A DNA stretch of 64,000 bases from Symbiodinium sp. CCMP2592. Lineage: Eukaryota > Sar > Dinophyceae > Suessiales > Symbiodiniaceae. Under the pieces are notes generated by a model. It worked only from the letters and a program-made list of their open reading frames with translations, did not search any database and was not told the DNA's origin. Both the position numbers and the translations under genes were made by a program. Location: positions 477,501 through 541,500 of the forward strand of contig CAJNDT010003113.1 in the NCBI GenBank assembly GCA_905221615.1, given 5' to 3'. Positions within the stretch are counted from its first letter, which is position 1. Every line of letters begins with the position of its first letter. Positions 20,100 to 41,333 of the stretch are shown here, piece by piece.

Positions 20100-20617
20100 T
20101 CTTTACAAGTGCTTCACTAAATACGCTTCGACTGCATCAAAGATTTCGCAAATCCTACATTCTGCCTTTCCTTCATATACACCCTGAGTTTTTCCAAGCC
20201 ACATACATTCGCGTACGGCTTCTTCTCGTTGCAAAAGAACGCAAGCTTGCATGCATGTTGTGTGTGTATAGGTTTTTGCATGCAGCAGTATGGGCTCTGA
20301 AGGTAAAAAGCAACAGGAGAGCAAAGATATATCATCCCATATAACATAGTATCACGACAAGTACAGATATGAACAGAGGGCCCTATTACTACACCTCCCA
20401 TATATAAGACGCATCGAGATTATAGATAATGTCCGTGAACACGAGATCTAGCGAACCTTTCAGGGTTCAATACCTTGTATTTCACCAATAAATCACCCTT
20501 TAGATTACATTTGGGAATACTTTGCAAAATTCCACTCTCATAACCTTCATATTTTGTAGAAATCCATTTGAATATCCTGTCGCATACCGTATACAAAACC
20601 ACCTATATATGATACAC
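20100..20617. other. AT-rich spacer leading into satellite
   Basis: No gene seen. GAATACC/CCTATAG words become frequent towards the right and merge into the duplicated satellite. Confidence 0.6.
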
Positions 20618-21443: not shown

Positions 21444-21627
21444 ACACTTAGTGGCTCAAAACCAAACTTTTCAACTCTTGGCCCCTAATAAGGTAATCTT
21501 ACTGCGAAAACTTAAACTTTTTACACCCCCATAGATACAACGTCACCCACGTGTTACCTGCCATGCAGTCGCCAGACTCGCCATGCGGGAGCCAAAAATA
21601 GGTATTTGGGAAGTAAGAATACCTATA

Positions 21628-21632: not shown

Positions 21633-21713
21633 TGCGAACGGACTGCGATGCCTTGTCAAGTTCTAAGGTGTCACTATAAGAGCTGTGAGCAAGACCGTGT
21701 AAAGTGCAAGAGA

Positions 21714-21765
21714 AGGGGGCACGCTACGCGTCCCTCGACTCTAAGGGGGCATGCTACGCATCCCT
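21714..21765 (+). promoter_or_regulatory. Two tandem LTR hairpins with covarying stem
   Basis: A 30-bp unit is duplicated. Copy 1 has ACGC-TAC-GCGT (21721-21731), copy 2 ATGC-TAC-GCAT (21751-21761). The C-to-T change on one side is matched by G-to-A on the other, so pairing is kept. Outer AGGG/CCCT can pair in both. Present again in the 3' LTR at 40984-41024. Confidence 0.6.
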
Positions 21766-21800
21766 CATCTTTACCTTTCTATGTGACCGCCAACGCAACG

Positions 21801-21811
21801 TTTGGCTCAAG
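21801..21811 (+). promoter_or_regulatory. Possible relic of dinoflagellate spliced leader
   Basis: TTTGGCTCAAG equals the last 11 nt of the conserved 22-nt dinoflagellate spliced leader, in sense orientation. Same word at 41064-41074. Bases upstream do not match the leader. Confidence 0.4.
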
Positions 21812-22065
21812 TCAATGCCCATAGCTAAGTGCTATATGTGTCTTCTATCCTGAGCAATCAGAGCTATCCCGTTGCACAGACGAACCGCCGCCGGCAGTGA
21901 GTGCAAAAGGAACGGCCGCCGGTTCTGCCTGCATAGGATTGCACGTGTGGAAGTAAGAGGGAGAGACAGGGTCCAGTCTGTGGAGAGTGCAAGCCAGCCA
22001 CACCTACATTCATTACAGCTCTGGTGGGGAGAGCAGCAACCAAGTCGAGATCAATCCCCCACGCA

Positions 22066-22076
22066 GGTTATCAGCC
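22066..22076 (+). promoter_or_regulatory. Primer-binding site, giant element
   Basis: GGTTATCAGCC directly follows the LTR. It differs at one base from the complement of the initiator tRNA-Met anticodon arm (GGTTATGAGCC). The mismatch falls opposite anticodon position 34. The first element has the same site without the mismatch. Confidence 0.6.
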
Positions 22077-22086
22077 GTACGCGGCT
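22073..22086 (+). promoter_or_regulatory. Leader hairpin AGCCG-TACG-CGGCT
   Basis: Perfect 5-bp stem with TACG loop, overlapping the end of the primer-binding site, 44 nt before the ORF1 start. Confidence 0.4.
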
Positions 22087-22129
22087 CTGCCTTTCTACAG
22101 CAACGACTACTTGATCTACTACGACCACA

Positions 22130-25100: not shown

Positions 25101-28100
25101 GACGAGAACAGTCAAATCTCACTCAGACCCAAATTGGCTTGCGCCAGATGCTTGAGGGCAAGGATTTGCTTGCTGCACCGGCCAAGGTACCCGAGAAACC
25201 AACGCCTAACGCAGCTCCATCCGCAAAGGTCAAGGCTTCGCCGACCAAGCCGGATAAAGCAACACCTGTACTACCTCAAAGCAAAGCGAAGAGTCATGCG
25301 AAGACCAAGCCAAAGCCCAAGAAGAAGACGAGGAGTGAGTCAGCGGACAACAGAGGTGACAAAAGCAAGAAGCAAATCCGCTGCAAGTTCCATTTCACAG
25401 ATGCAGGGTGTCGAAATGGTGATAAGTGTCCATTCAGTCACTCGAAGAAGACTCCAGAGCGACCCTTCACGCCGAGGACGAGAACTCCAAGTCCATCTGG
25501 AGGAGGAGGAAACAGGATATGCTACTCGTTCAAGAACACAGGCTCGTGCTCAAGAGAGAATTGTCCTTTCAAGCATGAGGCAGCAGCTACCCCAGCTCCG
25601 GAACCAAAGGCAAAAGCTAAAGCTAAATCCGAAGCGAAGGCAGCTCCAGCGAAGCCGAATGCCAAGGCCAAGGCACTCCCTGCGGCACCCGCCATCAGAT
25701 TGTGTCGAAGGTGGAATCCATCAGCTCCGGCTATATGGAAGCGATCTTCAAGACAAGATGAGGAGGAGTCAGATTGTCCATCCGTTGACAGCGACGCTGA
25801 TTCGGATTGTTCAACAGATGACGAATCCTCGGGAACGACTACGTCGACCCGAAAAGAGATAAAGCGTAATGTGACGTTCGCCGATGACGTGAAGTTCATT
25901 TCTTCGTGTCCTAGAAGATCGAAGAAAGACAAAGAGCGGAAGGTGAAGTACGTCGACATGGAAGCGTTTATCAATGATGAGGACCGCGCCGTGAGCTTGG
26001 AATTCGCCAAGCACAAAGCGAGATTGAGGGCACAGATCATGAGAGACATGGTTGACGACGATGATGATCAATGCGGAGATCGAGTTTCATTCGTACGAAT
26101 CCCAGGAACGCCTCGAGTGGAAGAAGTTTCTTTCTACGACGGTGAGGATTCCATCGTTGAGCGCGAACTCGATGCTGCACACAGCAAACGGATCATCAAT
26201 CAAGGCGTATTCAAATGCATGGTTCAACCAGTCATCCTCAAGAAGAAGATCAAGTTTCTCATGGACACTGGGTGTGGTCACGACCTCATATCTCAGAAGA
26301 AGATCGAGAAGCACAGTCTCGAAACACTCGTGACTCCAGAGCCCATATCATTTCAGACAGCCAATGGAATCACCGATACCGATCTCGTGTCGAATTTCCA
26401 GACTGAGTCGTTCGAGGAACCGATCAACGCTTATGTGTTGGATGACACACCGTCGGTGCTTTCCATAGGCAAGAGATGTATGAACTTCAACTACGGGTTT
26501 GTGTGGCCACCCGGAAGGGAACCATTCATGATCAACCCGCAGGGCAAGAGAATATCTCTGTTCGTGAACGGTGACATCCCGTACGTTCGTGCCGGGAGTT
26601 CTAAGTCATTGGTTCATGATGATCCGGAGGCCAAAGCGATCACCGAAATCTTCAAGGGTGCGCTAACAGCGGGCAATGTTGACGTCAGCGTCGCAGCTGC
26701 CGCTGAAGCTGCACCGAGCGAGATTGAAGCAGAAGAAGAAGGTGACGATCATGAACGACCTCCTGATCCTGAACCCCAAGAACCTCCTATAGAAGAAGTA
26801 CCAGAGTCCGAGGCCGGACGACCTCCGGACGACGACGAAGGAAAAGGAGTGGGTGAAATTCCATTGGATGGTGATGATGAGGTGATCATTGATGTGGAAG
26901 GCGACGGTGCGCCGAGCCGCAAGGCCAGAGTCGGAACACTGAAAGCCGAAGCTAAGACGTTGGCACATCTGTGTACTCATCGCTACCGCAACCCATATTG
27001 CGAATCGTGCATACGCGCGAAGATGAAGCACTTGCGAACACAACGAGGTGCGTTTCAACGTGTGATCAAACACTGGGGAGATCTTGTGACGTTCGACTTC
27101 CTTGACATGCGCAAGGCCGCCGAAGCAGGCATCGGACTCGATGACGGAGCACGTGAAGTTCTAGTCATCAGAGATATCGCCACCAAAATGATCGCAGCGA
27201 TTCCCACGGCTTCAAGGAGCACTGACGAGGTCGTCATGGCCATCAGACGTCTAATGGGAAGACGCAAGATTCATATGGCGTACAGTGATGAAGCACCAGA
27301 GTTCGATTCAGCTATGGCGCAGTTGAAGATCGTGATAGATCATTCCCTTCCAGGGAAACCCAGTAACAATTCACTCGCTGAACGATCAAATCAAGAAGTG
27401 ATCAACACAGTCGCAGCATCCATGCTACACGCCGGATTGCCCGCTCAATACTGGTCCTTTGCGCTTAATTGCGTGATGCAGAACCTCAACGTTGAAGACG
27501 TGGAGGGCGATGGTGATTCAGCATGGAAGCGAATGACTGGAAAGGACTTCGAGGGAAAAGCCATACCCTTTGGGGCCAAAGTCTTCTTCAAGCCGACGGA
27601 CACAAGGCCGAAGACATATGGCAACAAATTCGATCCAAAGGGGATCCCAGGCATTTTTGCCGGATACATCATCACTGCTGGTCAAGGATGGTCCAAGAAG
27701 TATCGCGTTTGGGATATGAAGGAATTTGCCAATGCGAACTTGTCGATGGACGCATCTGTTCCCAGGAAGTTGATGAGACCGTACGAGACAGAAGTTATCT
27801 ACTTCCCAGAGGAGATAACGTTTCCCCTGAAAGCCGAGTACGAAAGGATGAATTCAACCATTGAGGGACTCAGGGACAACGTTGACCTCGCTGGCAAGGA
27901 GATAAAAGACGTCGATGACGGTGATGACGGTCCGCCCAGAGGAAATGGTGGCGACGGGGATGATGATGATCAAAATGGACTTCTTCCTCCACCGGATCCC
28001 GGAGAAGATCCTGACTTACGGGACATAGACCCATCTGACATAGAGACGGAGCCGTCCGGCGAAGTCTTCAAGTCAGCAGAACATGCAGCTATTGATGCCA

Positions 28101-31100
28101 TAGGAGACAAAAGACTCGAAGAACTAGACGAAGAGCTGGGTCTACGTGCGGCACCGCCTCCTTCTGAACCAAAGGTCACTGGGAAAGATCGACGATCGCC
28201 CCGCGAAGTCGGTCCAACCGGTAGACTCATCCCCGAAGGAGACATCGAAGAACCTGGAGAGATTATCAAGATCTTGAAAGAAAAGAAGTTGGCTCCCGAG
28301 GAGATTGAACATTGGAGTACGGGGAAGAAAGGGGACGGCATTGTATATCTCACCGATGACGGTGAAGCCTGCAAGATCGACAAAAGGGGAGTTCCGTATA
28401 AGATCCGAAGTGACGGTCGACGAACTCTTCCTACACGGCGACCTATCCATTCTTATTCTCCGGAAGCATGGAAGAAGATGAGCGAAACGGAGAAGAAGGC
28501 AGCATACAAGAAAGAAAAGCGAGACAAAGCTCGAGTTGCCAAGAAAGACCGGAAGAAGGCTGTGATAGGAAAGAAGATAGTTACCAAGATTTTGGACAAC
28601 ATGATCTTTCCCAAGATTGTCCCATGTGAAGAAATTGATCTGCAACTCAACGTGTCCATTGATGACGACGATGGTTGGTCATGGGCACAGTCCTATGTGG
28701 ATCAATATACACAGGAACAATTCTTGGCAGATGTTGTGCCGGCCGTTCCGGCGCATATGGTCATGGATGATAACTGGATTCCTTCTATGCCGTGTACGAC
28801 TTCTCACAGAAACGTACATCGGGAAAAGAATCATGCAGGAGGATCGTGCTTCAATGCCATGGTCACTCGACCCGTCACACGCAAGGAGATGATCAACAAT
28901 CCCAAGGCCATGGAAGCTTTCATGAAAGAATGGAAGGGATTGTGGGACCAAGAGGTGTTTGACTTCTCAACTACGCGTGAATATGACGACGTCGTCGCTG
29001 AGGCAAAGAAGAAAGGTGAGAAAGTACACATGGCGCGAGTACATGGACTGATATACGAGAAGAACTATCAGCTCAAAGAGGACGATCCTGCCAGGAAGTT
29101 CAAAGGGCGAGGTGTACTACTCGGTGATCAGGTCAAAGACCAGAACATGGAAGCCGCATTGTTCCAGGATTTGGGAAATTCCCCGGCTACGTTTGACGCC
29201 TCACGGTGGGCAGATTATTACGGATGCCTTCCTGGCAACGATGTCCAGATGGCGGATGCTATCCAAGCATACATTCAGGCAAGACTGTCGGGTACTCCAT
29301 GTTGGGTTGAACTGCCTGATGAAGCCTGGCATCCATCTGCGAAACGGCATAAATTCCGTAGGCCTGTATGTCGCCTGATCAAAGCTCTATATGGACATCC
29401 TGACGCAGGAACCATGTGGGAACAACATTGCCATACCGCGGTACAGAAAGTAGGATTCAAGCCAATTGGCGATGAATGGCCATCATTGTATTTCCACCCG
29501 CAAATGAAGCTCTTGCTTGTCATCTACGTGGATGATCTCAAGATGGCAGGACCCAAAGAGAATCTACCCAAGGGTTGGGACATGCTGCGCCAAGAACTTC
29601 GATTGGAAGAGGAAACGCCACTGGGCTTGTATCTGGGTTGTCGCATCTCCAAGGGCGAGGCAACGTTGCATGACAAAACGAAGGTGCAGACCGTTACCTA
29701 CGACATGGAGACGTACCTGGACATGACAGTCAAGAAGTACTGCGACGTGACTGGGTTCGATCCGACAAAATTCAAGACGGTACCATCGCCGAGTCCGGCT
29801 GAGGAGACTAAGAATCACCCAGCTCGCGCTCCGGCACAGTCAGGTAAAAGCCATCGATGCACGTGGTGTGGACACACCATGCCTGTTGATAAGGATGGTC
29901 GGCTCGTTCCGCCTCCACCTATTCCCAAGGCGCCCGAGGAAGAGGAAATCAACGAGGCTAATCGCGGTGCACTTGCTCCGCAGGCAGCCAGCATTCTCAT
30001 GAAATTGCTTTATGCCGCGCGCATTTGCCGCTTTGATCTTCTGCGCAGTATCAACAATCTCGCACGCAAGATCACGAAATGGACCAAGAAGGAGGATGCT
30101 CTTCTTCATCATCTCATGGCCTATGTGCACCAGTCCAAACATCACATGATGATTGGATGGGTCGGGAACTCCTTGGAGGACTCGTCCATCGGGCTGTTTG
30201 CAGATGCGGACTATGCAGGTTGTGGAGAAAGTTTGAAATCTACCTCCGGTGCTCACTTGCACATTCAAGGTTCTCATACACGGTTTCCCTTGGCGGGACT
30301 TAGCAAAAGGCAGGGATGCTTGAGTCATTCCACACCTGAGGCCGAGATTGTCGCGGCCGACTTTGCCATGTCACGTCTTGGATTGCCTGCTATCACGTTG
30401 TGGCAGCAGCTTGGGGGGCAAGACCCCAACTTCGTCTTCTACGACGACAACCAGACCATGATCGGGGTGATTCGCACGGGCAAGAATCCGACTATGCGTC
30501 ATTTGGAGCGTACCCATGGCATCTGTATTGGATGGATGCATTCTATATTTCAGGAAGGTTACGTTTCTCTTGCCTATGAGGTCACTGCCAAGATGTCAGC
30601 GGACATACACACCAAGTCGTTCAAGGATTCCGTGTCCTGGACACATGCGTGTCAGCTCATCAACATCTTTCCGCCGGATCTCATCGGCTCCCAAGAGATT
30701 ATGGATCTGATGCGCCCTACTCATACCCAAAGCACAGATGAGAAGGGTCAGCAGCACTACTCGTTCAAGAGCGAGGTGCCTTGTTTTCCTTACACGCAGA
30801 CGCCGATCCTCCCTCAGGTGTTGTATCGCGCTGGATTGTCGAGTAAGGAAGGCTTGCAAGAACATGACAGTGTGGACCCCATCCTGGTTGTCAAGTTCCC
30901 GCGCATGTTGCGGGGGCCGCCTTCCGCGTTGCCGCCTGGTCGTTACCTTCGGTCGACTTGGATTCTTCGTGAAGGGCAGTGGCACCAGATGGAGGATCGT
31001 GCTGCTATCCTTGATCAACCGGGCAAGTTCGACCGCTATGTGGAGCGTGCTGTGTTTCAGTACCACCCGGTCCGGGGACATTTGCGCCCCGCAGCTATCG

Positions 31101-33028
31101 CGGACGTCCTTGCGCCGCCGTTTTTGCCTCCTCCTGAACCGCCTCTAGGCCAGTCTTATGTGCGCGCCCTGCCCGCCAAATGGCGAGCGGTGGTTGTCAC
31201 ACTGGCGCGTGCCATCCATGGGGGGTACCAGGGCTTTACATTGCACCAGGGCTTTTGTTTCAACGGCCAGTCCAAAAGTCAAGCCTCTCAATTTGGTTAT
31301 GACCAATGGTCGTCGGTGTACGAGGATGTATGGCATGATGCGGCGGAACAGAAAAGGGAATATCAAGGATATGATGGAGCAATTGTGCCTCACGTGGTCA
31401 ATTTCGCCGAAAACAAACCCAAGGAGGGCCTGGTGATCCAATTCCTCGACCACGATGGAAGGTTGGTCCATACTTACAAGAATCCTTACAGCCGGTGGAA
31501 GTACCGTATCACTATCAAAGATGCTCCAAAGGCAGTGACGGTGTGGACATTGATAGGAGTCGATGAGGAGAACTGGTGGAATGAGTATGCTCCAGGCAAG
31601 GATTGCATCGCCCAGCATGCTCCCGATTCTCACTACGACCCTGGGCTGCAAGTAAATGTTCTGAGTATGGGGCGAGAAGTTGACGACGCCATGTGCGCCT
31701 ACCTCTTTGATGTGGTGGAAGCAAGGAAAGACAACCCTAACTCCGTAATCTTCATTGGTGCAGGGGTGTTGGGCAAGAATTCGTGGCTGAGTCGGAAAAT
31801 CGCTGACAACCCTGAAAGGGCCAAATTGCGGACAGACTACCCATGGGGGGAGGTCGTCCAAAGAATTGCGCGCAGAGCGGCATCATGGGGGTTCCAAATC
31901 ATCATCGAAGTACCTCCTCGAGTACCAGTCCAGGAAACCAAGCAGTATAAGGGGCTTCAGGAAGATGCCATGTGGAAGAGCATCAAGATCCAAGGATGCA
32001 CTCACGGGCAGCGTTATACCTTTCGGGATCCTGTATCTCCCGGAACCGCCGTTGAGCTCGGCTACTGCAAGGATGAATGGGAGTACATTGCCGCAAACGT
32101 CGCGTTGCATCCTAAGTCGTCTGATGTGTGCTCGTCCAAACATTTGCACATGACTGATTCGGACGCTAAGGATCGATCTGATAAATGCGAGTTGACTAGC
32201 CAAATCTCCAGGAGATTGCTTAAAGCCTTGAAATTTCAGGCAACGGGCGATGGGAGATTGGTAGCCATGCCGTCGAAGGCTGGTGGACGAAAGCCAGACC
32301 GCATGATTGTTGACCTCTGTGGCTTGGGTAATGGCTACGCCGTGCCTAAGTCCACTAAGGGTTGCTCTCGCATAACTTGCAAGGAGCTGATCGGCTCCAA
32401 AGCCGATGAGGACAACCTTATCGGTACGATGAAGGATGCGTGCCGGAACGACCTGCGCACACCTGTGCTATTCGTGGCATCGCTTTTGCGATCAGGTGCT
32501 GGTCCTGGAAGTAGTGAAGGGGCTTGCGTGGAGGGTGAGAAACGTTCCGGTGGGAAGTACAAGGTTTTCAGGAGTGTCTTGAAATCTCTCAAACGCCTGC
32601 TGAGGAAGTGTGCGGAATTTTCCGACGTCTATTTTTCGCTTGACATGCCTTCTTCATGTTCATGTTGGTCTTGGCCAGAGTTGCATGCTCTTGTTTCAAG
32701 TGGCAAGGTGACGAAGGTTAAGGTTGATGATCATGTTGGTGCTGGTGGCGATGGTGGTGGACGCAGGATCATGTTCTCTAACATGCCTGAAGCGGATCGT
32801 TTGATGGTGAGACCGGATGATTGCTTGGACCATGATTCGAAGAGCAGTTTGTCGCAGCGCATTGATGTCTCATGGCGGTCAATTGCGAGGAATGTTCGCA
32901 GCCTTGTTCGAGCTCATGTCAGTGTCAGTCATGTTGCACATGAATCTGAGGACATTGCATGGCAGCAACATCAGTGTGTAGACGCTGATGAAGGGGCTAT
33001 TAGACAGCCCCAACTAAGGAACAACTAA
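22130..33028 (+). CDS. Gag-Pol polyprotein of giant copia element, with C-terminal extension
   Basis: 3632 residues. 1-200 is Ser/Thr/Arg-rich and disordered; 205-455 is a long coiled coil; 700-760 is acidic. 774-1007 is a helical Gag core. Two CCCH zinc fingers (C-x8-C-x5-C-x3-H at 1085 and C-x8-C-x4-C-x3-H at 1131) replace the CCHC knuckle. The protease triad is DTG 1379-1381 (FLMDTGCGHDLIS). Integrase has H-H-C-C (LAHLCTHRYRNPYCESC) and D1656, D1720, E1751, spacing 30 where 35 is usual. RT runs about 2255-2530 with NDVQMADAIQAYIQA and YVDD at 2466-2469. RNase H, about 2685-2832, has FADADYAG, STPEAEIVAAD, YDDNQ and AKMSADIHTK. Residues 2833-3632 are an extension not found in standard copia pol. 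All expected catalytic residues are present. The ATG at 22130 is 64 nt after the LTR. Confidence 0.96.
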   Translation: MNSGSSQDTTMTFGADVAAPAVGESTADDTVVQSVDSSTEDDKGQSSALAIAKAVPKGKAKSLPRASTPSRPTSTGSRTGKASERRAEASGFQAPRTTSRAKDKGVKTLEKKSRPSSSRSSSARSRTSATRGRDKSMTWNRMVTNQPRDADDLDMTLDTIPARGDASSVTTPAIADGPNAYQELTISQQLEASNLAQQMYYRSQMQEYEGVVQTLMDKIKEMQQEDEGSGIRIEELERQRDHACLAMRHINNVNQEMKRDYETALFRMDEQNSAQQRQAHAVAEELAQQLHVFRTEAATNFVQLEARAQGDGELMAREYERLTHELHEHARENLVLRSNTASSEQALQAMQERFHLVKNQELRAVNEIQGLAGNSAAIDQERFRLRERLGEEEEYRKMAVKRMQEAEDRLHQNEDHARRSLPTLHDELSELRKTLKAQEDLQARTRSELEAARNSNYGGATRPSSMPMSSRTTESGWEHVGKEVVPAFSVGGEVRSPEIRSPSQVSPVAKEKFAFSESDKDKNLVMDGIPFTGGNFFTGRSSMPIVADAMPEHYVPGISSPALARSTPSAATLFGIPSGFHGKSDAAAVRDRQLRELLEDRGMLGSKSTASASSSRPVGVDGITASTKGNDLIGPPIAYDDSIHEARRRQIEKEVAERYEEKIADLRSEVLKAQKAEQRLRADRDEWKLFAETIQEDNGDDDGDEAGDENEDGEHDEGTGTGYDPPDPPDDDDDKKKSGGGKPESDPGSHARDPDGDADPEVTEVRISRREADKVTVPPWPTLTHLNNWRSVCTANVLGASADPHHEDWMLWLAPAFNPFPDVEALNDSGHKKFKSIDVKLGIAMVAMLRAGGDKSADLYLEVNRKANDYISRPDGKIIKGRQIIAMMYESFRTHDRLDMIITLEYLVKLQYQGDNKLHTFKQTWLEVLGRMRPEDIPSKTALRDCLYSKIKDSPAMKMELGMHYEHLPYNHEDRSYDNLMKIIDRTIMRRREQSNLTQTQIGLRQMLEGKDLLAAPAKVPEKPTPNAAPSAKVKASPTKPDKATPVLPQSKAKSHAKTKPKPKKKTRSESADNRGDKSKKQIRCKFHFTDAGCRNGDKCPFSHSKKTPERPFTPRTRTPSPSGGGGNRICYSFKNTGSCSRENCPFKHEAAATPAPEPKAKAKAKSEAKAAPAKPNAKAKALPAAPAIRLCRRWNPSAPAIWKRSSRQDEEESDCPSVDSDADSDCSTDDESSGTTTSTRKEIKRNVTFADDVKFISSCPRRSKKDKERKVKYVDMEAFINDEDRAVSLEFAKHKARLRAQIMRDMVDDDDDQCGDRVSFVRIPGTPRVEEVSFYDGEDSIVERELDAAHSKRIINQGVFKCMVQPVILKKKIKFLMDTGCGHDLISQKKIEKHSLETLVTPEPISFQTANGITDTDLVSNFQTESFEEPINAYVLDDTPSVLSIGKRCMNFNYGFVWPPGREPFMINPQGKRISLFVNGDIPYVRAGSSKSLVHDDPEAKAITEIFKGALTAGNVDVSVAAAAEAAPSEIEAEEEGDDHERPPDPEPQEPPIEEVPESEAGRPPDDDEGKGVGEIPLDGDDEVIIDVEGDGAPSRKARVGTLKAEAKTLAHLCTHRYRNPYCESCIRAKMKHLRTQRGAFQRVIKHWGDLVTFDFLDMRKAAEAGIGLDDGAREVLVIRDIATKMIAAIPTASRSTDEVVMAIRRLMGRRKIHMAYSDEAPEFDSAMAQLKIVIDHSLPGKPSNNSLAERSNQEVINTVAASMLHAGLPAQYWSFALNCVMQNLNVEDVEGDGDSAWKRMTGKDFEGKAIPFGAKVFFKPTDTRPKTYGNKFDPKGIPGIFAGYIITAGQGWSKKYRVWDMKEFANANLSMDASVPRKLMRPYETEVIYFPEEITFPLKAEYERMNSTIEGLRDNVDLAGKEIKDVDDGDDGPPRGNGGDGDDDDQNGLLPPPDPGEDPDLRDIDPSDIETEPSGEVFKSAEHAAIDAIGDKRLEELDEELGLRAAPPPSEPKVTGKDRRSPREVGPTGRLIPEGDIEEPGEIIKILKEKKLAPEEIEHWSTGKKGDGIVYLTDDGEACKIDKRGVPYKIRSDGRRTLPTRRPIHSYSPEAWKKMSETEKKAAYKKEKRDKARVAKKDRKKAVIGKKIVTKILDNMIFPKIVPCEEIDLQLNVSIDDDDGWSWAQSYVDQYTQEQFLADVVPAVPAHMVMDDNWIPSMPCTTSHRNVHREKNHAGGSCFNAMVTRPVTRKEMINNPKAMEAFMKEWKGLWDQEVFDFSTTREYDDVVAEAKKKGEKVHMARVHGLIYEKNYQLKEDDPARKFKGRGVLLGDQVKDQNMEAALFQDLGNSPATFDASRWADYYGCLPGNDVQMADAIQAYIQARLSGTPCWVELPDEAWHPSAKRHKFRRPVCRLIKALYGHPDAGTMWEQHCHTAVQKVGFKPIGDEWPSLYFHPQMKLLLVIYVDDLKMAGPKENLPKGWDMLRQELRLEEETPLGLYLGCRISKGEATLHDKTKVQTVTYDMETYLDMTVKKYCDVTGFDPTKFKTVPSPSPAEETKNHPARAPAQSGKSHRCTWCGHTMPVDKDGRLVPPPPIPKAPEEEEINEANRGALAPQAASILMKLLYAARICRFDLLRSINNLARKITKWTKKEDALLHHLMAYVHQSKHHMMIGWVGNSLEDSSIGLFADADYAGCGESLKSTSGAHLHIQGSHTRFPLAGLSKRQGCLSHSTPEAEIVAADFAMSRLGLPAITLWQQLGGQDPNFVFYDDNQTMIGVIRTGKNPTMRHLERTHGICIGWMHSIFQEGYVSLAYEVTAKMSADIHTKSFKDSVSWTHACQLINIFPPDLIGSQEIMDLMRPTHTQSTDEKGQQHYSFKSEVPCFPYTQTPILPQVLYRAGLSSKEGLQEHDSVDPILVVKFPRMLRGPPSALPPGRYLRSTWILREGQWHQMEDRAAILDQPGKFDRYVERAVFQYHPVRGHLRPAAIADVLAPPFLPPPEPPLGQSYVRALPAKWRAVVVTLARAIHGGYQGFTLHQGFCFNGQSKSQASQFGYDQWSSVYEDVWHDAAEQKREYQGYDGAIVPHVVNFAENKPKEGLVIQFLDHDGRLVHTYKNPYSRWKYRITIKDAPKAVTVWTLIGVDEENWWNEYAPGKDCIAQHAPDSHYDPGLQVNVLSMGREVDDAMCAYLFDVVEARKDNPNSVIFIGAGVLGKNSWLSRKIADNPERAKLRTDYPWGEVVQRIARRAASWGFQIIIEVPPRVPVQETKQYKGLQEDAMWKSIKIQGCTHGQRYTFRDPVSPGTAVELGYCKDEWEYIAANVALHPKSSDVCSSKHLHMTDSDAKDRSDKCELTSQISRRLLKALKFQATGDGRLVAMPSKAGGRKPDRMIVDLCGLGNGYAVPKSTKGCSRITCKELIGSKADEDNLIGTMKDACRNDLRTPVLFVASLLRSGAGPGSSEGACVEGEKRSGGKYKVFRSVLKSLKRLLRKCAEFSDVYFSLDMPSSCSCWSWPELHALVSSGKVTKVKVDDHVGAGGDGGGRRIMFSNMPEADRLMVRPDDCLDHDSKSSLSQRIDVSWRSIARNVRSLVRAHVSVSHVAHESEDIAWQQHQCVDADEGAIRQPQLRNN
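30626..33028 (+). other. 800-residue extension after RNase H (part of ORF1)
   Basis: Residues 2833-3632. The middle part (about 3000-3230) contains QFLDHDGRLVHTYKNPY, SVIFIGAGVLGKNSW and GFQIIIEVPPRVP. The last part (about 3324-3571) has DLCGLGNGYAVP, PVLFVASLLRSGAG and VYFSLDMPSSCSCWSWPEL. The order of a glycine-rich strand, a strand ending in Ser, a basic helix and a strand then CxxW recalls a methyltransferase-like domain I associate with the C-termini of dinoflagellate copia proteins. No catalytic motif is clear, so it may be degenerate or another fold. Confidence 0.35.
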
Positions 33029-33140
33029 GGTCTGACCAGACGGATCGGGGAAGGGTGCCTCTTACGGAGAACCCGGAACCGTGAAGTCGAGTAGGGTGTA
33101 GGGACTTCCCTCCTACGGAGGAAGGACCGAAACCCGAGCC
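33029..33140 (+). promoter_or_regulatory. Intercistronic region with two TAC-loop hairpins
   Basis: 112 nt between the ORF1 stop (33026-33028) and the ORF2 ATG. CTCT-TAC-GGAG (33059-33069, one U-G pair) and CTTCC(C)TCC-TAC-GGAGGAAG (33105-33124, 8 bp with one bulge) share the core CTCY-TAC-GGAG. The word CAACTAAGG is repeated across the stop codon (33011-33019, 33022-33030). ORF2 is in another frame from ORF1, so simple readthrough cannot express it. Candidate roles are reinitiation, internal entry or a trans-splice leader. Confidence 0.5.
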
Positions 33141-36100
33141 ATGGCTGAAAGCTACAATGCCTACGAGCTGGCCTTCGAAGGAGTGGACCACGAAGAAGTT
33201 TTCCCGTCTGGTGGGATGATGCGAACGTTTCTGAAGTTCCACAAGTTCCTGGAGATGTATTCTGGGGATTCGTCGCAGAGCGTTTCGCTCCCGCCGAAGA
33301 TTACGAAAGACAAAGTGGTCGACAATGATCTCATTCGCACATGGGCAGCGTTCAAAGCACCTCCGTTGGTCTTGCTGTTCACGTGTGCAAATCTGTCGCC
33401 AGGAGGGGATCTTTCCATTCGAGTCCGAGAAATCCTCAAAGCTTGCTTATTTGCTGCCCCTGAGGAGTACATGGACAAACCCTATGGGGAGATACTCGCC
33501 ATGGTCATCAAGTTTGGTGGAGGTCTCAAACACATTGTTGCTGACTACGAGGGGAAGTTCAATGCCATCACCAGGTTTATGGTGGATGAGGAAGTGATCC
33601 GCGATGATGCAAAATTGGCTGTAGTTGAACTGGAACAAGAACGAAAACAAGTTCGGTTCGACTTGAACACTGCAACAAGGAACATCGTCAGTGCGGACGT
33701 GTACTACAACCTCGCCGTTCTCATCAACTCCGTGGAGACGCCCTACCAGGCCGTGACAGACACGAGAATTCAACAATGGTATACGGTGAATCAGGACTAC
33801 TACCACAAGTTGCCTATGTCAGGTAGAGCACCTGACCAATCAGACCTGTTGGCGGAGCCTACGTTATGTAGGGTGTGCAAGCTGATGTACATGTTCGCAA
33901 AACACACTGGGTATGGACTACGGACCTACAACCAGGAATGTGCAGCGAGCAACGATGGCGCTACGCCACTCAACGTTCACCAGCTGGCTTTGATGATGCG
34001 CACAATGCCTCAAGGCATGGGACATCCGCTCGCCTTTGCGATGAACTCGCTCCAGGCGTTCAGTGTCTGTCTCCACGTGCTTCATTCCTACGTATCATGG
34101 GTTGATCCAGAAACTGGACACCCGCATTACAGATGGTCCAACGATGTGCTCCCTGATTCCGACTACACCACGTATGCTTTCCTCAAGCACCATGTGGATG
34201 CTGTATGTGCAGATCAGGACAGGAACGGCTTCCAATTGCCGGATGCGTTCCGTGGCTACACCTGGAATCAGTGCGGAGTTGAATCTGGGTACGTGGTCGA
34301 CTGCTCTACCAAACGCGCCACGTTGGGCATATGGGAAGCAGAATTCCAACAGATGGGGGCACCAAGTCCGCTTATGCAAGATGATGGCCTATTTCCGCCC
34401 AATCTTCAACGGCATCCTAGCTGGGTATACTCAACGGGGAGAGTTGCGATGCCTACGGCAAGCAACCTCGAACCGGAAGGAATCGTGCACCCTGAGCATG
34501 GAAGAACGCCGGGACAATCGCAAGGATCCGCTGCCGAGCCTCGAGCCACCCCTAGCCACGGACCAAAGAGGGCAAGGACGGACGAGGCAACGGCATCGGC
34601 GTCGTCATCTTCCGCGGCACCTCCTCCACAACCATCGACTTCGCAACCGGAAGAGGAACCATCGCAACCGACATGGGAGGAAGCTCCAATCCCCGCTGGC
34701 GCTCAGGAAAGTTGGTACCATTATGTCAACATCGATGAAAAGGGCTGTCGCTCGAGCTTGCTGGCGACGACCCGTGATCAAGACGAGTACCCACCTACCA
34801 TTGATGAGACGCCAAAGTTTGTGGCCAACCACGACGTGGGGACCACACCGATTCAGCATTACGTCAGAAGACTGGTGACCTATTTGGCAAGGATCCGTTC
34901 CGTCTCTCAAAGTGATGACAAGGGTCTCAACCTGAAGGTCTACGTGAAGCTGAGTACGAAGGTGTGGTTACGGATGTATTCACGGCTGTACCATGCATTG
35001 GCATTGGTGTCATGCGTGCATCTTCCTTCTCCTCCGATGCTTACCTCGGCAGTGATGATCGAGGCAGACAACGATCTTGTCGACAACGATGAAATTCCGG
35101 AAGAAGCAAGGATCAACACCATGAACACGCTGAACGGATTTCGCAATAGTTTGGGTATGGGTGGCAAGCCTGATGCCGCGACTATGCGCTCTCAATGCAC
35201 AATCCTCGTCCAAGACTTTGACATGGTCGCAAGGACCAGGGGATCAACGCATACAGTGAGAGAGAACCTCGGCATGCATGGATGGAGTGAGATCTACATT
35301 GTGAGCCCGTCGATCACCACAGGTGCCAACTACAACTTCCAAGTCACAAAAGGATCGTTGGAATCTGTGAATGCGACATTGGATGGCTTGACTGAAGAGC
35401 AGCTTGCAACCGTCACATTGCATTACCATCTGTCTCTCCAGGCGATCCTCATCGAGAACATATCATTTCCGATGAGTGAGGTCGGAGACGGAGCAGCAAT
35501 TCGTTCTGACTTGCAGCGACAGCTCAAGGTCACGTACGTTGACCCTATCATTGCGGCAGGGAAGCGTACCACGCGCCCTCCAATTGTCAACATCAATCAC
35601 GACTTACGGTTCGTAGGAGCAGCCAGCAATTACCTTCGACAGAAAGCTTCTCTGTTCAACGGCTTCCACGCGCTGGGAATGTATATTGAACTGGAGTTGC
35701 GAGCCCGAGCATGCGTGGTGATTCATGGATCTTCGTTTTGGTCAAGAATGTACAGCCAGATGAAACATGCGTCATCAGGCGTGCATACACTGTCAGCCGA
35801 AAAGGTGCCAGCACCGGACAATCGGGTCAGGTTCAAATTGGGCTTCGCTATCTACGAGAAGCAGCTGTTCTGCGAGAAGATGGTATCCACGTGCTTTGTT
35901 GAGGCATCGAAAGTTCGCTCATGGGACGAAACTGTCCGAACCGACTCAGTCGCTCACCCGTCGCTTGTCGAGATTTGGGAGGACAAGAGTGAAGTCAAGA
36001 CGTCCACCAAGATTTCGCAGACATGGTTTACGGGAGAACAGCAGCAACAGATCAGGTCGGGTGCCCAGGGTGACACGGTCGCTGAATCGTCCACAGTCAC

Positions 36101-39100
36101 CTGGCAGGATTTTGACATCGCCATGACCGTTCCCGAAGCCTACTACGACAACAGGCACTACTGGTTCAGGATCGACACCTATGCGACCCCGAACACTGGT
36201 TATGTCAAAGGGAGAACGTTCTATTGCCCTGGATGTGAAGCAATGAAGTTGGCTGAGTGCTACGCACAAGCCTTCTTCAAGCCGACCGGAAACGGGTATC
36301 CTGGACACTGCATTGGGTGCGCGCATACTTCAGCCTTGAAGATGCAGCATCAAATCGGCTCCTTCAATGACTTGATCACGTCCCAGAAGTACACCTTGGC
36401 TTGCGCAAAGCACCTTTATGACCTGAGGCTCCAATTCGTGGATCCTCGCGTGGACATCAAGGAGTTCCTCAAAGTTTGTGCGGAGATGGTCTATGAAGAC
36501 ATCGGCAAGACGGTTTCTCACTACGGTGGTCTCCGAATCACAGCCAGTCAGGCCATCGAGTACGCGGCATGGGGAAAGGCCAAACAGTTGGCATGGGACA
36601 GAGGGTACGACTCCGAAGGCAAGACATGCTACATCTGCTACTACGATGCCGGGAACTGCGCTTATGCTGGTTTCATGAGAATGCTTTTGACTCCGGAAGA
36701 GCGCCAAGAATGCTACAGAGGGTCAGTCTTGCCCAAGGAAGAGCTCCTGGGTGACACGGTGGAGCTGGCGCTCGGGCTTCTTACAATTGCAATGAGACAC
36801 CCAAGTCATTTTCCGAATTGGGGTGGCCTTGAGGGAGCAAATGCGTGCGCGAGGGGAATCGAAAGATCATTCTTCCGCTACGCGTCGGCCGAAGCTATCG
36901 AGCTGATCACGGTTGACTCCCCGCGCAAAAGGACACCGCCCAAGAAGAATGAAGCAGTCGCTGAGATCGTCAACAACATGTCCGCTGACCTCGTGATTGA
37001 TTTCACAGTGATCGTCGATGGTGATATCTACCCTGTAGAGATTGCGAGAACCGACGAGACACAGGCCGCTGACAACGTCACGGACGATCCAGGGTTCTCA
37101 GTTGCTCCACCAATACCTGCACAGGATGTAGATGTGGATGCGCAACCCGAAGAAGAACAAGGTGCAGAAGGCCCTGATCCCAGGCATGCAATTCGTGAAG
37201 GATTTGTCACGCAGCTTCAGGACTATGTGGGAGTACTCGCTCAGGGCGAAATGTCGGTCGGAAGCGACCGCCTTACGTTCTGTGTCGCTTGTGGCAGTGA
37301 TCTACACACTCTGTCCAATTGCACAGAAAATGCTGCGACCCGGGATCTGGTACTTCGAGGCGTCCAGATTATCAAGGAAAGCCTTCTTCGATATCCACGT
37401 CGAGTACCTCCACAAGAGGCTGAGCCAATGGACGTTGACACCACAGACCATGTGAGTGTTGCATCCTCGGACCGACGACCCAAGGCCAAAGCCCGACCGC
37501 GACGCGGAGGCGAAGCCGTACGGGGTGATGTGGTCTTGATCCGTTATGAGAACAAACACAATCTCTGCACGGATGTGGAGAACCGTCGGGGCCTACATGA
37601 TGCTTGTGGCGTACCACTGCAGGAATCGGGACCAGAGAATAGCCAGCGAGTGGTGGACCTCATTGAGCAGCTTTCGGACCATCGCGACCGACGCCTACCT
37701 CAACGAGGAGACCGTCCTAGCTTTGCTTACGATGATACCACTCATAGCTACACCAATGCAGGCTACGAATCCATCGGCGGCGGAAGGCCAATCCGGTGCG
37801 GGATTCTCGACCTGATCCCAACCAAGGGTGCAAGCTTCATCAACAATCGATGGGACCTCGTGAACGAAGTTGTCCTTCGCGACATCACCCGTCAGCGCAG
37901 ACTGAACGCGGATTGGGCGCTATCATGCATCCAATCTGACCTGCGCCACAGAATCGCCAGGCGCCCAGGCTCGGAATGGCTTGACAACAGGTGCCAGGTG
38001 GCATTCAACAGTGTCATCAAATGTGATGAAGGAGGGTGGGTGATGATCGAAGATTTGGTGAGGCATGAGCCACTATGGACCCATGAAAGCAGACGCATCA
38101 CCGAAGCGGTCTCAAGGACCGATGAGCAACAGAAGAAGAGAGTGTACAATGAAAGACTTCAGCTATTGTTCCAAGGGAACATGATTGCAGCCACGAAACG
38201 CCACAAGGCCAAGATTCGGTTGCAGTTCCTGGGTGTGAGAGTGAAGGACCCCGGCACGGAAACTCTTGGATCAGCAGGTTCGAACAGGTTGGTATCGGTT
38301 CAGGACCAGATCACGGAGATCCAGAACAATGATCATTGCCGGCACGGCCAGAGGTACCTGAACATGTGCAACGGCTGGGTGAAGCCATGGGCAGTTCGGG
38401 CTACGAGTGGTCACTCTGCGCACTCAGATCCCCAGAACAACTTGCTTCAGTTGGACAAGAACAGGTTCGCAATATCTCCATCTATGACCCTCTTGCAACG
38501 TCTTGGAGGTGCGTTCCACGCTACGGCATGCCGCAACTTGGATTCCATTGTCACGCAAGGCATCATGCCTGGTTCGGAGGACCCCGACGGGGACTTCGAC
38601 CATAGGCGCCAATTCCGAGGCAACCAAGGTGGCAGACTCCACAGCTATTGGGGGGTGTTTGCGCCGTTCGATCACCGGAACGCAACGACCAAGATGCGAG
38701 TACATGGACGAGACGCCAAGCACATGCCACTGGCGGTCCTTCATGTCCCATCGCAGGACCTTGCACGAGAAGATGGACGTATCACAGACAGCGGCATCAT
38801 GATCGTTGGCCGAACGATACCTTTCCATTTCGTCAAGGAGGTATGGTTTTGCGTCCCGGATCCTCGAGATACACACTCTTTCGCTCTGGTGGAAAAGATC
38901 TACGATGAACGGTTGGAGAAAGAGCTGGTGTTGGACTACAATGCATCACCGTTGCTTCCTGAGTTCGAGAGATACCGAACGCCAAGCAAGATCATGGAAT
39001 TGCTTTGCGAGATGCCTCCTGGACCCCACGACACAAGCAAGGAGCAGATCATTCGAGACCTCACGACTGTCCTGGAGTCCCACAGGGAGAACACGGTTCG

Positions 39101-40631
39101 GCATCACTACATGGACAAAGGAATCAAGTTTGTCATCAAGAATTGGCGACCCGAAGACCTACGCAGAGACGAGGATGGACGGAGAATGAGGGTATGCCCG
39201 GCATGCTACAACATCGTTCCAGCATGTTTCTCCCGATGCACGTCTTGCTGGTCACAGTTCGTTTCGAGCGGATATTACCAAGGTTCTCCACAACGGGAGA
39301 CTCCTACGGAGATCCCCAGTGACTTCATTGCTCAGACAATGGAAGCCGCAGCAGCCGCAGTGCCTGAGGCGCCCGAAGAGGAGCAGGAAGCCATGGAGGT
39401 AGAGACCGTTGCGGAACCTGAGGAAATCCCAGAACCATCTGTCATCGCGGAGGACGATCCAGAACAGGAACCTGATGAAGAAATGGACATAGAGCCAGGA
39501 GAGGACTTTGATGACGCAGTACCAGAAGCAATTGCACAGGAACGTCGTCCCGTCTTCGTTACCGGCCAGTCTTTGAACATCGATCCTGAGCTACAACTTG
39601 CACGTACCGCCATGCAGCCATCCTACTATTCTGGAAAGCGAAATGCCCATTGCATTGACGCGAACATGACCGCTCTTTCGTACATGGCATACGTGGTATG
39701 CAGATCCATCTACAAGGCTTGGTCAGGATTCGCAAAGTGGGCGACTATGCCGTTGTTCCAGATGAGGGAAAGTTTCGCACTTGGCCAACGCTATGATGTG
39801 CTCGGAAAGTGGGGATCTTTGGCGGCAGTGGATAGGGAAACGGGTGTGAGCAAGGATGTGACTGATGAGGAGATCATTCGCTTTGCCAAGGAACCTGAGA
39901 ACCTCAAGCAGTATGATCCCAACGGGACTTACACCTTGAAGCGCTTCCGGACGAACCAGATGCTTTCGTTGCTTACACGGGGAGCCAACATGATGGGAAG
40001 TGGCAGGGACAACTTCAACCCTACTACTTACCTGAAGAGCGAAAGGGATGAAGATGTGAAGGCTATGCACTTTTGTTGCCTGAACGTCCTGTGCGAGGTG
40101 ATTCCAATGGTGACGGGACACCAACAATTCTCAGTGCTACGACCAACGCCAACTGGACCGGTGGACTTCTTGTACATCGACCCCGTCGGTATCCTGCTGA
40201 CTCATTCTGATCAGTCAGTCCAGACCATCGGCTTGCTGGTGGACCACAATGTGCAAATGCCTGCGCATTTCATGGACAGATTGAACAGATCCAAGGCTGA
40301 GAGACAGCAAAACCCGACGACCAAGCGTACTGAAGCCCTACACCACATTTCGGCCGCTGACTATCTCCCTCCAGGTGGTACTTCCATCCTGGACACGCCT
40401 GTCACTACGGAGGAACGTGAAAGCGCTTCTTCGGCCAAGGGACCTTCAAAAGGGCGTGGGAGAACCGGAGGTGAGCAGCATGGAGGCTGGAACTCCAACT
40501 CCTACTACGACTACACCGCCGGCAAAGGCCGAAACAAAGGCAAGGACAAGGGAAAGCATCGGGAACAGTATCCAGAGGAAAACCTCCGGCCCTGGGACCG
40601 CGATCCTGCGACCACGCGAAGATGGAGATGA
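33141..40631 (+). CDS. Second ORF of giant copia element, with Tpt1/KptA-like RNA 2'-phosphotransferase domain
   Basis: 2496 residues, ATG in good context (GAGCCATGG). Residues 1-440 are globular and of unknown family; 455-520 are Pro/Ser/Glu-rich. The middle (about 550-1400) has possible zinc sites, C1029-x2-C1032 ... C1057-x2-C1060, and a CYICYYDAGNC motif. Residues 1584-1910 resemble Tpt1/KptA. An N-terminal winged-helix lobe has LRH (R1602, H1603), then DEGGWVMIEDL and a Lys/Arg-rich helix. The catalytic lobe has VRATSGHS (R1753), FHAT (H1793), GRLHSYW (R1832) and a late AREDGRITDSGIMIV strand pair. A zinc ribbon follows (C2019, C2022, C2029, C2033, C2036). Then comes an acidic Glu/Pro linker, a conserved-looking region 2120-2400, and a Gly/Lys/Arg-rich tail suited to RNA binding. 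No envelope, signal peptide or membrane segment was seen. Tpt1 enzymes remove an RNA 2'-phosphate using NAD+; the activity here is inferred. Confidence 0.93.
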   Translation: MAESYNAYELAFEGVDHEEVFPSGGMMRTFLKFHKFLEMYSGDSSQSVSLPPKITKDKVVDNDLIRTWAAFKAPPLVLLFTCANLSPGGDLSIRVREILKACLFAAPEEYMDKPYGEILAMVIKFGGGLKHIVADYEGKFNAITRFMVDEEVIRDDAKLAVVELEQERKQVRFDLNTATRNIVSADVYYNLAVLINSVETPYQAVTDTRIQQWYTVNQDYYHKLPMSGRAPDQSDLLAEPTLCRVCKLMYMFAKHTGYGLRTYNQECAASNDGATPLNVHQLALMMRTMPQGMGHPLAFAMNSLQAFSVCLHVLHSYVSWVDPETGHPHYRWSNDVLPDSDYTTYAFLKHHVDAVCADQDRNGFQLPDAFRGYTWNQCGVESGYVVDCSTKRATLGIWEAEFQQMGAPSPLMQDDGLFPPNLQRHPSWVYSTGRVAMPTASNLEPEGIVHPEHGRTPGQSQGSAAEPRATPSHGPKRARTDEATASASSSSAAPPPQPSTSQPEEEPSQPTWEEAPIPAGAQESWYHYVNIDEKGCRSSLLATTRDQDEYPPTIDETPKFVANHDVGTTPIQHYVRRLVTYLARIRSVSQSDDKGLNLKVYVKLSTKVWLRMYSRLYHALALVSCVHLPSPPMLTSAVMIEADNDLVDNDEIPEEARINTMNTLNGFRNSLGMGGKPDAATMRSQCTILVQDFDMVARTRGSTHTVRENLGMHGWSEIYIVSPSITTGANYNFQVTKGSLESVNATLDGLTEEQLATVTLHYHLSLQAILIENISFPMSEVGDGAAIRSDLQRQLKVTYVDPIIAAGKRTTRPPIVNINHDLRFVGAASNYLRQKASLFNGFHALGMYIELELRARACVVIHGSSFWSRMYSQMKHASSGVHTLSAEKVPAPDNRVRFKLGFAIYEKQLFCEKMVSTCFVEASKVRSWDETVRTDSVAHPSLVEIWEDKSEVKTSTKISQTWFTGEQQQQIRSGAQGDTVAESSTVTWQDFDIAMTVPEAYYDNRHYWFRIDTYATPNTGYVKGRTFYCPGCEAMKLAECYAQAFFKPTGNGYPGHCIGCAHTSALKMQHQIGSFNDLITSQKYTLACAKHLYDLRLQFVDPRVDIKEFLKVCAEMVYEDIGKTVSHYGGLRITASQAIEYAAWGKAKQLAWDRGYDSEGKTCYICYYDAGNCAYAGFMRMLLTPEERQECYRGSVLPKEELLGDTVELALGLLTIAMRHPSHFPNWGGLEGANACARGIERSFFRYASAEAIELITVDSPRKRTPPKKNEAVAEIVNNMSADLVIDFTVIVDGDIYPVEIARTDETQAADNVTDDPGFSVAPPIPAQDVDVDAQPEEEQGAEGPDPRHAIREGFVTQLQDYVGVLAQGEMSVGSDRLTFCVACGSDLHTLSNCTENAATRDLVLRGVQIIKESLLRYPRRVPPQEAEPMDVDTTDHVSVASSDRRPKAKARPRRGGEAVRGDVVLIRYENKHNLCTDVENRRGLHDACGVPLQESGPENSQRVVDLIEQLSDHRDRRLPQRGDRPSFAYDDTTHSYTNAGYESIGGGRPIRCGILDLIPTKGASFINNRWDLVNEVVLRDITRQRRLNADWALSCIQSDLRHRIARRPGSEWLDNRCQVAFNSVIKCDEGGWVMIEDLVRHEPLWTHESRRITEAVSRTDEQQKKRVYNERLQLLFQGNMIAATKRHKAKIRLQFLGVRVKDPGTETLGSAGSNRLVSVQDQITEIQNNDHCRHGQRYLNMCNGWVKPWAVRATSGHSAHSDPQNNLLQLDKNRFAISPSMTLLQRLGGAFHATACRNLDSIVTQGIMPGSEDPDGDFDHRRQFRGNQGGRLHSYWGVFAPFDHRNATTKMRVHGRDAKHMPLAVLHVPSQDLAREDGRITDSGIMIVGRTIPFHFVKEVWFCVPDPRDTHSFALVEKIYDERLEKELVLDYNASPLLPEFERYRTPSKIMELLCEMPPGPHDTSKEQIIRDLTTVLESHRENTVRHHYMDKGIKFVIKNWRPEDLRRDEDGRRMRVCPACYNIVPACFSRCTSCWSQFVSSGYYQGSPQRETPTEIPSDFIAQTMEAAAAAVPEAPEEEQEAMEVETVAEPEEIPEPSVIAEDDPEQEPDEEMDIEPGEDFDDAVPEAIAQERRPVFVTGQSLNIDPELQLARTAMQPSYYSGKRNAHCIDANMTALSYMAYVVCRSIYKAWSGFAKWATMPLFQMRESFALGQRYDVLGKWGSLAAVDRETGVSKDVTDEEIIRFAKEPENLKQYDPNGTYTLKRFRTNQMLSLLTRGANMMGSGRDNFNPTTYLKSERDEDVKAMHFCCLNVLCEVIPMVTGHQQFSVLRPTPTGPVDFLYIDPVGILLTHSDQSVQTIGLLVDHNVQMPAHFMDRLNRSKAERQQNPTTKRTEALHHISAADYLPPGGTSILDTPVTTEERESASSAKGPSKGRGRTGGEQHGGWNSNSYYDYTAGKGRNKGKDKGKHREQYPEENLRPWDRDPATTRRWR
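37890..38870 (+). other. Tpt1/KptA-like domain within ORF2
   Basis: Codons 1584-1910. Both lobes appear in the right order: LRH plus DG in the winged-helix lobe; R-A-x-x-GHS, H-A-T and R-x-H-x-Y/W in the ADP-ribosyltransferase-fold lobe. The four residues corresponding to the known Arg-His-Arg-Arg active site are R1602, H1603, R1753 and R1832. An insertion of roughly 80-110 residues separates the lobes compared with compact bacterial KptA. HAT replaces the usual HGT. Confidence 0.72.
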
Positions 40632-40889
40632 ATCAACGCTTGGTCTTCCTCGCCTATCAGTTCGTGACCTCTGAGCTTCGCCCATGGAATGCCATCGCGA
40701 ATGCTTCTTTCTTCGGTGACGCCTGATTCGTTTGTCATTTCAGGGGATCGTTACTGACGTAGATGAGTGTCACAACGTTTCTAATTGGGATGCAAAGCTC
40801 TGATTTTCAATGTCAACGTTGCGGCGGAACATTTTCTGTTGTCCTATCGTGCCATCTTCCGGGTGAGCAGCGTCGGAGACGCAACTCAT
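40632..40889 (+). other. 3' untranslated region of giant element
   Basis: No ORF of note between the ORF2 stop and the polypurine tract. TTTGTCATTTCAG at about 40732-40744 resembles a splice acceptor. Confidence 0.5.
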
Positions 40890-40895
40890 GGGGGG
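40890..40895 (+). promoter_or_regulatory. Short polypurine tract GGGGGG
   Basis: Six G directly before the 3' LTR, the expected plus-strand primer position. Short for a polypurine tract. Confidence 0.65.
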
Positions 40896-41328
40896 TGCGA
40901 ACGGACTGCGATGCCTTGTCAAGTTCTAAGGTGTCACTATAAGAGCTGTGAGCAAGACCGTGTAAAGTGCAAGAGAAGGGGGCACGCTACGCGTCCCTCG
41001 ACTCTAAGGGGGCATGCTACGCATCCCTCATCTTTACCTTTCTATGTGACCGCCAACGCAACGTTTGGCTCAAGTCAATGCCCATAGCTAAGTGCTATAT
41101 GTGTCTTCTATCCTGAGCAATCAGAGCTATCCCGTTGCACAGACGAACCGCCGCCGGCAGTGAGTGCAAAAGGAACGGCCGCCGGTTCTGCCTGCATAGG
41201 ATTGCACGTGTGGAAGTAAGAGGGAGAGACAGGGTCCAGTCTGTGGAGAGTGCAAGCCAGCCACACCTACATTCATTACAGCTCTGGTGGGGAGAGCAGC
41301 AACCAAGTCGAGATCAATCCCCCACGCA
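40896..41328 (+). repeat. 3' LTR of giant copia element
   Basis: 433 bp, same as 21633-22065 by eye, TG...CA ends, followed by the TSD copy GATAA. Confidence 0.96.
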
Positions 41329-41333
41329 GATAA
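41329..41333. repeat. Target-site duplication GATAA (right copy)
   Basis: Matches 21628-21632 exactly. Confidence 0.95.

Follow-up and report, generated by a model that had tools for sequence, protein, structure and literature searches.

The window analysed here is a stretch of 64,000 nucleotides from Symbiodinium sp. CCMP2592 (GenBank assembly GCA_905221615.1, contig CAJNDT010003113.1, positions 477,501 to 541,500 of the forward strand), which carries a large long terminal repeat (LTR) retrotransposon with two long open reading frames (ORFs). ORF1 encodes the gag-pol protein, and ORF2, a protein of 2496 amino acids (aa), contains a domain related to the RNA 2'-phosphotransferase Tpt1/KptA (Table 1). 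The element is a Ty1/Copia LTR retrotransposon by its RVT_2 reverse transcriptase, its paired TG...CA LTRs and its target-site duplication, and it is regarded as young because the LTRs are identical, end in TG...CA and have ATAA at both flanks. An earlier note on this DNA had placed a Tpt1/KptA-like domain in an intact frame of a young Copia element; its coordinates are correct, RVT_2 and the LTR pair support the Copia context, and the open ORF2 and the 100% identity of the 434-bp LTRs agree with an intact frame in a young element.

The domain (ORF2 residues 1584-1910) matches the Pfam family PTS_2-RNA (PF01885) at E=4.2e-8 with 33.9 bits, above the gathering score of 26, as had been anticipated; the whole ORF2 scores 26.7 bits, and no other Pfam family matches the domain at E<=1. 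When ten trimmed sequences, the window's own domain and nine relatives, were compared with Pfam, nine of them hit PF01885 at E<=1e-3, where no other family appears; at E<=10 PF01885 is found in all ten, together with five other families in one member each. Comparison of the predicted structure, also foreseen in the earlier note, gave top matches led by Tpt1 and recovered the two-lobe Tpt1 fold, in a model whose relative lobe orientation is unreliable (rmsd ~8 A across both lobes). Local profile-profile matching of the Copia family with six KptA sequences gave a probability of 96.3 (E=1.6e-9), and alignment with nine Tpt1 sequences (E. coli, five phages and three from long interspersed nuclear elements, LINEs, of the same genome) gave 98.3 (E=1.7e-14) across the NAD lobe. 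With hhalign, the match to E. coli KptA alone is weak (probability 39.8) and becomes clear with the six KptA sequences. Against the PDB, phmmer with the domain as a single sequence found no match, and the likeness to Tpt1 is therefore one that becomes visible with profiles and structures. The PHROGs search with the domain likewise gave no match, and NCBIfam gave KptA matches below threshold only (18.8 bits vs 239). Among PDB sequences, the family profile (A4) reached E<=0.01 with a single entry, Tpt1 8tfz (0.0023), followed by seven weaker rows, some of them unrelated. The domain shares with Tpt1/KptA the order of motifs, the R-H-R-R tetrad, the GGW turn, K-x-R, GHS, the His and Thr of HGT, and the GR ahead of the LHS/VHL motif. 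It differs in being embedded in a 2496-aa retrotransposon protein, in its strong overall divergence, in having HAT for HGT and TSGHS for xQGHS, and in ~50 more residues between R1693 (RLQFLG) and VRATSGHS.

The motifs LRH, CDEGGW, KIRLQF, VRATSGHS, HAT and GGRLHS follow one another in the Tpt1 order. In Clostridium thermocellum Tpt1, the tetrad R18-H19-R68-R121 is essential and K66 ancillary (PMC6333775); judged from the aligned sequences, the catalytic Arg-His-Arg-Arg set of ORF2 is R1602, H1603, R1693 and R1832. The positions of the first three follow from motif spacing and from a profile alignment that was forced to be global. This alignment pairs LRH with LRH, CDEGGW with the DGW/DGY turn, KIRLQF with KQRFQL, VRATSGHS with IRAxQGHS, HAT with HGT (H1793 and T1795 are present, with Ala in between) and RLHSY with RxHVHF, in keeping with the DG turn and the HAT equivalent recognised earlier. 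The note's choice of R1602, H1603 and R1832 was upheld by alignment and retention; its third member, R1753, was rejected as a conserved neighbour answering to the Arg of IRAxQGHS, and R1693 takes its place. The third tetrad member is the Arg of K-x-R because of spacing: the first and third Arg of Runella Tpt1 are residues 16 and 64 (PMC6333775), and E. coli KptA has the same 48 residues from R21 to R69 (K67-K-R69-F), with IRAVQGHS starting at 79. One phage KptA (L006) has Lys in place of the Arg of IRAxQGHS. In a 41-row alignment with a mean of 0.50 across 309 columns, and counting rows with a letter, R1602 and H1603 are each kept in 32/32, R1693 in 36/37, R1832 in 28/30, K1691 in 34/37 and R1753 in 32/36. 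The exchange of R1753 for R1693 makes the active-site evidence stronger, and it leaves our confidence where it was because mechanism, not identity, limits it.

A search of 5.8 billion proteins returned five long and 35 shorter relatives of the domain. The named ones come from Symbiodinium sp. KB8, in which one predicted protein (P0006) joins RVT_2 to a Tpt1-like region, and relatives at 30-77% identity retain the active site. No relative of the Copia domain was confirmed among the 13 pattern hits in IMG/VR contigs or the 72 in prokaryote genomes. The assembly of the window (1.098 Gb, 5383 contigs) has 1164 candidate places for the domain; the 122 that were scored all lie at 98-100% identity, and none has a stop inside the domain. 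Fifty-one rows (the window, 30 scored loci including the window's own copy, L029, and 20 further regions) comprise 41 distinct sequences, again free of stops. Their codon variants number 74 on 220 synonymous sites and 38 on 761 nonsynonymous sites, a pN/pS of 0.15 that is biased low because copies were ranked by protein score. R1602, H1603, K1691, R1693 and R1753 are invariant in these rows, and R1832 is Ser in one of the 51. The earlier expectation of selection agrees with this mostly synonymous variation. With Tpt1 homology, a retained catalytic set and intact frames, we hold with high confidence that the stretch is a selected Tpt1-derived domain in a high-copy element, and its sequence indicates an RNA 2'-phosphotransferase that has diverged but is probably active. 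As to origin, the family profile scored best on a LINE copy (class3_L012, 15.3 bits) among ten Tpt1 sequences. All ten scored higher than any of 200 shuffles (at most 1.7 bits), L006 with 4.2 bits and a host-like exon barely, with 1.9, and because of this last score no donor is claimed.

Within this genome, LINE-type elements carry Tpt1 too. A search of the assembly with the PF01885 profile gave at least 152 matches, from 150 scored among 1550 candidates; among the matches listed, most reach 130-140 bits, often in frames of ~665 aa, and some stand in tandem ~10 kb apart. The LINE Tpt1 domains (136-175 bits) are canonical and much better preserved than that of the Copia element. L015 exemplifies the 130-140-bit rows, the kind that also occurs in tandem: its 1173-aa frame has RVT_1 (E=3.6e-22) and ubiquitin hydrolase (E=3e-8), and Tpt1 (E=1.3e-39) lies in the separate 653-aa frame. 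L015, L016 and L017 have 6.5-8.7 kb in common at 96-98% identity; anchors were located in two of the three LINE Tpt1 loci compared, and L015 and L017 differ by 1 nt and 0 aa in 618 nt. At least 16 of the matches listed score 147 bits or higher, two of which (L018 and L019) were extended. Frames for RVT_1 and ubiquitin hydrolase lie downstream of the Tpt1-endonuclease frame in L018, and in L019 no family beyond Tpt1 and endonuclease was seen within the extracted piece. L009, L010, L011 and L013 (92-98%) and L007 (~80% nucleotide identity to L012) group with L018 and L019 by DNA likeness, and those seven loci give dN/dS values for the Tpt1 core of 0.12 when L007 is compared with the remaining six and of 0.04-0.14 within the six. 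These LINEs (RVT_1 + Tpt1) are, like the Copia element, retrotransposons of this genome with Tpt1, but they belong to another class, their Tpt1 is canonical and they have an extra ubiquitin-hydrolase domain. Because several kinds of element carry Tpt1, the distribution suggests that retrotransposons of this genome took up an RNA-repair tool.

Two further observations concern these loci. The 653-aa protein of L015 (2392-4350, minus strand) has a sub-threshold PARP-like stretch (E=0.00025) ahead of its Tpt1 domain. Among the at least 16 high-scoring matches, L008 (G000:C4512:154221-157691) has Tpt1 in a 242-aa frame from which the LRH part is missing, as an intron could explain; because of this gap it looks, from its sequence, like a piece of a host gene.

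Table 1. Features of the Copia element in the window and three LINE-type elements of the same assembly (positions are those of the window unless a contig is named).
Feature	Position	Strand	Remarks
Whole LTR retrotransposon	21633..41329	+	19,697 bp, from exact repeats and flanks
Target-site duplication ATAA	21629-21632 and 41330-41333		4-bp match, weak taken alone
5' LTR	21633..22066	+	434 bp, TG...CA, 100% identical to 3' LTR
Putative primer-binding site GTTATCAGCCGTACGC	22067..22082	+	directly after 5' LTR
ORF1, gag-pol	22130..33028	+	3632 aa
ORF1 CCCH zinc finger	25370..25447	+	PF00642 E=2.8e-5
ORF1 aspartyl-protease-like stretch	26240..26443	+	PF13975/PF13650, below cut-off
ORF1 Copia-type reverse transcriptase	29357..29653	+	PF07727 RVT_2 E=6.2e-8, over cut-off
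ORF2	33141..40631	+	2496 aa, start 112 nt past ORF1 stop
SGNH/GDSL-hydrolase-like fold	35190..35891	+	residues ~684-917, structure model
QDFD	35211-35222	+	residues 691-694, roughly at GDS position, after first model strand
Zinc-ribbon-like CxxC...CxxC	36219..36320	+	by eye
Zinc-knuckle-like CxxCx4Hx4C	37278..37322	+	upstream of Tpt1 domain, by eye
Tpt1/KptA domain	37890..38870	+	ORF2 residues 1584-1910
R1602-H1603 (LRH)	37944..37949	+	= Tpt1 R18-H19
K1691-I-R1693	38211..38219	+	= Tpt1 K66 and R68 (third tetrad member), global profile alignment
R1753 to H1758 (RATSGH)	38397..38414	+	= Tpt1 IRAxQGHS motif; R1753 codon 38397-38399
HAT	38517..38525	+	residues 1793-1795, = HGT, holder of NAD ribose
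G1831-R1832	38631..38636	+	= Tpt1 G120-R121
Second zinc-ribbon-like cysteine set	39192..39248	+	by eye
Polypurine stretch ATGGGGGG	40888..40895	+	precedes 3' LTR, by eye
3' LTR	40896..41329	+	434 bp, exact repeat of 5' LTR
L015 LINE-type element	G000:C890:312500-322499		1173-aa, 299-aa and 653-aa frames
L018 LINE-type element	G000:C2857:766655-776654		1501-aa frame: Tpt1 E=1.2e-44 + endonuclease E=1.3e-10
L019 LINE-type element	G000:C4579:284500-294499		1535-aa frame: Tpt1 E=1.7e-44 + endonuclease E=1.6e-8

In ORF1, a weak Pfam match to SH3_retrovirus (E=0.0096, below cut-off) precedes RVT_2, and no integrase core was matched by Pfam at E<=1. Structure prediction for ORF2 covered residues 524-1007 and 1584-1910, and the first of these pieces contains the SGNH/GDSL-like domain, with a named relative from Symbiodinium sp. 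CCMP2456. In the model, the serine motif of this fold appears degenerate (QDFD), a placement against the GDS motif made by eye, without residue-level alignment. The element shares with Ty1/Copia retrotransposons RVT_2, a protease-like stretch, TG...CA LTRs and a half-tRNA-like primer site, and it differs from them in its 19.7 kb, its 3632-aa gag-pol and its separate ORF2 with SGNH-like and Tpt1 domains.

A second Copia element lies on the minus strand of the window at 2552-12335, with LTRs ~99% identical and two long frames (2202 aa, with RVT_2, and 509 aa), neither matching PF01885 nor comparable to ORF2. A few bases past its LTR stands GGTTATGAGCGCCC, which presumably would fit a half initiator tRNA as primer site. 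Two direct repeats of ~415 bp each, ~90% identical (20616-21447), lie immediately upstream of the 21633-41329 element. Elsewhere in the window, a 418-aa open frame (44210-45466) has no Pfam match in its 391-aa version from GTG, and long trinucleotide-rich (CTA/TAG-like) tracts at 14026-14520 and 17600-18150 run in opposite orientation, ~3 kb apart.

Tpt1 is familiar as an enzyme of tRNA splicing; what it does in organisms that lack the matching ligase has long been a puzzle. The likeliest role that we infer for the domain of the Copia element is removal of 2'-phosphates from element RNA, which would enable reverse transcription. Cleavage of the RNA by a metal-independent host RNase would produce a 2',3'-cyclic phosphate end; the action of either a cyclic phosphodiesterase or a ligase of the fungal/plant type would then leave a 2'-phosphate that would block the reverse transcriptase. 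ORF2 may bind element RNA through its zinc-knuckle-like motifs, and its Tpt1 domain, inside the particle of the element, would strip the 2'-phosphates with NAD+ and keep the template (or primer end) copyable. The route from cyclic phosphate through 2'-phosphate to KptA is set out in PMC9503650, which also reports KptA in phages and a few RNA-virus polyproteins. Since Tpt1 is found in LINEs too, this step is probably shared by both modes of reverse transcription, and the substrate is then more likely to be the RNA template than a tRNA primer. Taken jointly, the identity as a Tpt1-derived domain and the template-repair mechanism fall a little short of an even chance. Equally tentative, and not quite evenly balanced, is the proposal that at least two classes took up Tpt1 (in Copia ORF2 and in LINE ORFs), whether through independent captures or through transfer, and kept it catalytic because their RNA acquires 2'-phosphates, by cutting and religation or in another way, before it is reverse-transcribed.

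Among the alternatives, the domain might ADP-ribosylate 5'-phosphate ends of element RNA or complementary DNA, giving an NAD-derived cap that hides or protects them. TRPT1 and bacterial relatives are described in PMC6582358 as ADP-ribosylating phosphorylated RNA ends, and it is the NAD lobe that the local profile alignment finds. The Tpt1 equivalent of R1693, however, is important chiefly for the second step, the transfer of the phosphate (PMC6333775), and the retention of R1693 by 36 of 37 rows speaks for the complete two-step reaction. This explanation is unlikely, though a genuine rival. Also unlikely, and slightly more so, is that the fold no longer serves as an RNA 2'-phosphotransferase and was kept to bind NAD or RNA or to modify proteins, as an ADP-ribosyltransferase whose target has changed, for instance to a host defence protein. 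The divergence that leaves the single-sequence PDB search empty and the ~50 extra residues would suit such a change, and ADP-ribosyltransferases often switch targets in conflicts, according to PMC9503650; yet R1602, H1603, K1691 and R1693, whose Tpt1 counterparts hold the RNA phosphates, are kept in nearly all rows.

Less probable still is a role in primer repair: opening of the cyclic phosphate would leave the 5' half of a cut tRNA-Ile with a 2'-phosphate, and the domain would give this half-tRNA back the plain 3' end needed for priming. The GTTATCAGCCGTACGC site would presumably pair with a tRNA-Ile 5' half that ends at position 39, where inosine-34 would stand opposite C. Drosophila copia is described in PMC5371799 as using a half-tRNA as primer. 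This hypothesis was demoted because LINEs carry Tpt1 and the neighbouring Copia element has no such ORF. LINEs prime on target DNA, and the element at 2552-12335 presumably has a half-initiator-tRNA-like site, with no PF01885 in either frame. A chance likeness or a functionless passenger fragment of a host gene, to which the empty single-sequence PDB search and the near-background scores of the host-like exon and L006 might point, is very improbable, since profile and structure tests concur, relatives at 30-77% identity retain the active site, none of the 122 scored copies has a stop and synonymous variants predominate on far fewer sites.

No description of Tpt1/KptA in a retrotransposon was found in the titles and abstract starts of the open-licence PMC literature, as partly covered. 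The closest precedent is the DNA methyltransferases of dinoflagellate LINE and DIRS elements, SymbioLINE-Dnmt and SymbioDIRS-Dnmt3 (PMC5890265), which are likewise Symbiodinium retrotransposons with a captured nucleic-acid-modifying enzyme. They carry a DNA methyltransferase in place of an RNA-repair enzyme; according to that paper, Copia is without any DNMT domain, and a text search of it finds no "phosphotransferase"; what is new here is the enzyme and its presence in more than one element class. Phage and viral KptA offer a second likeness, a genomic parasite with KptA, sometimes within a polyprotein, and a proposed role in RNA-end repair (PMC9503650), but these are viruses, and "retrotranspos" is absent from that text.

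Tpt1, apparently under purifying selection in more than one retrotransposon class, thereby becomes linked to the fate of retrotransposon RNA, and it is a second enzyme class, besides DNA methyltransferases, captured by dinoflagellate retrotransposons. The finding predicts a 2'-phosphate problem in the retrotransposon life cycle and offers a natural system in which to seek one. If the proposed role is true, an NAD+-dependent step of RNA repair or anti-restriction would be built into the retrotransposons themselves.
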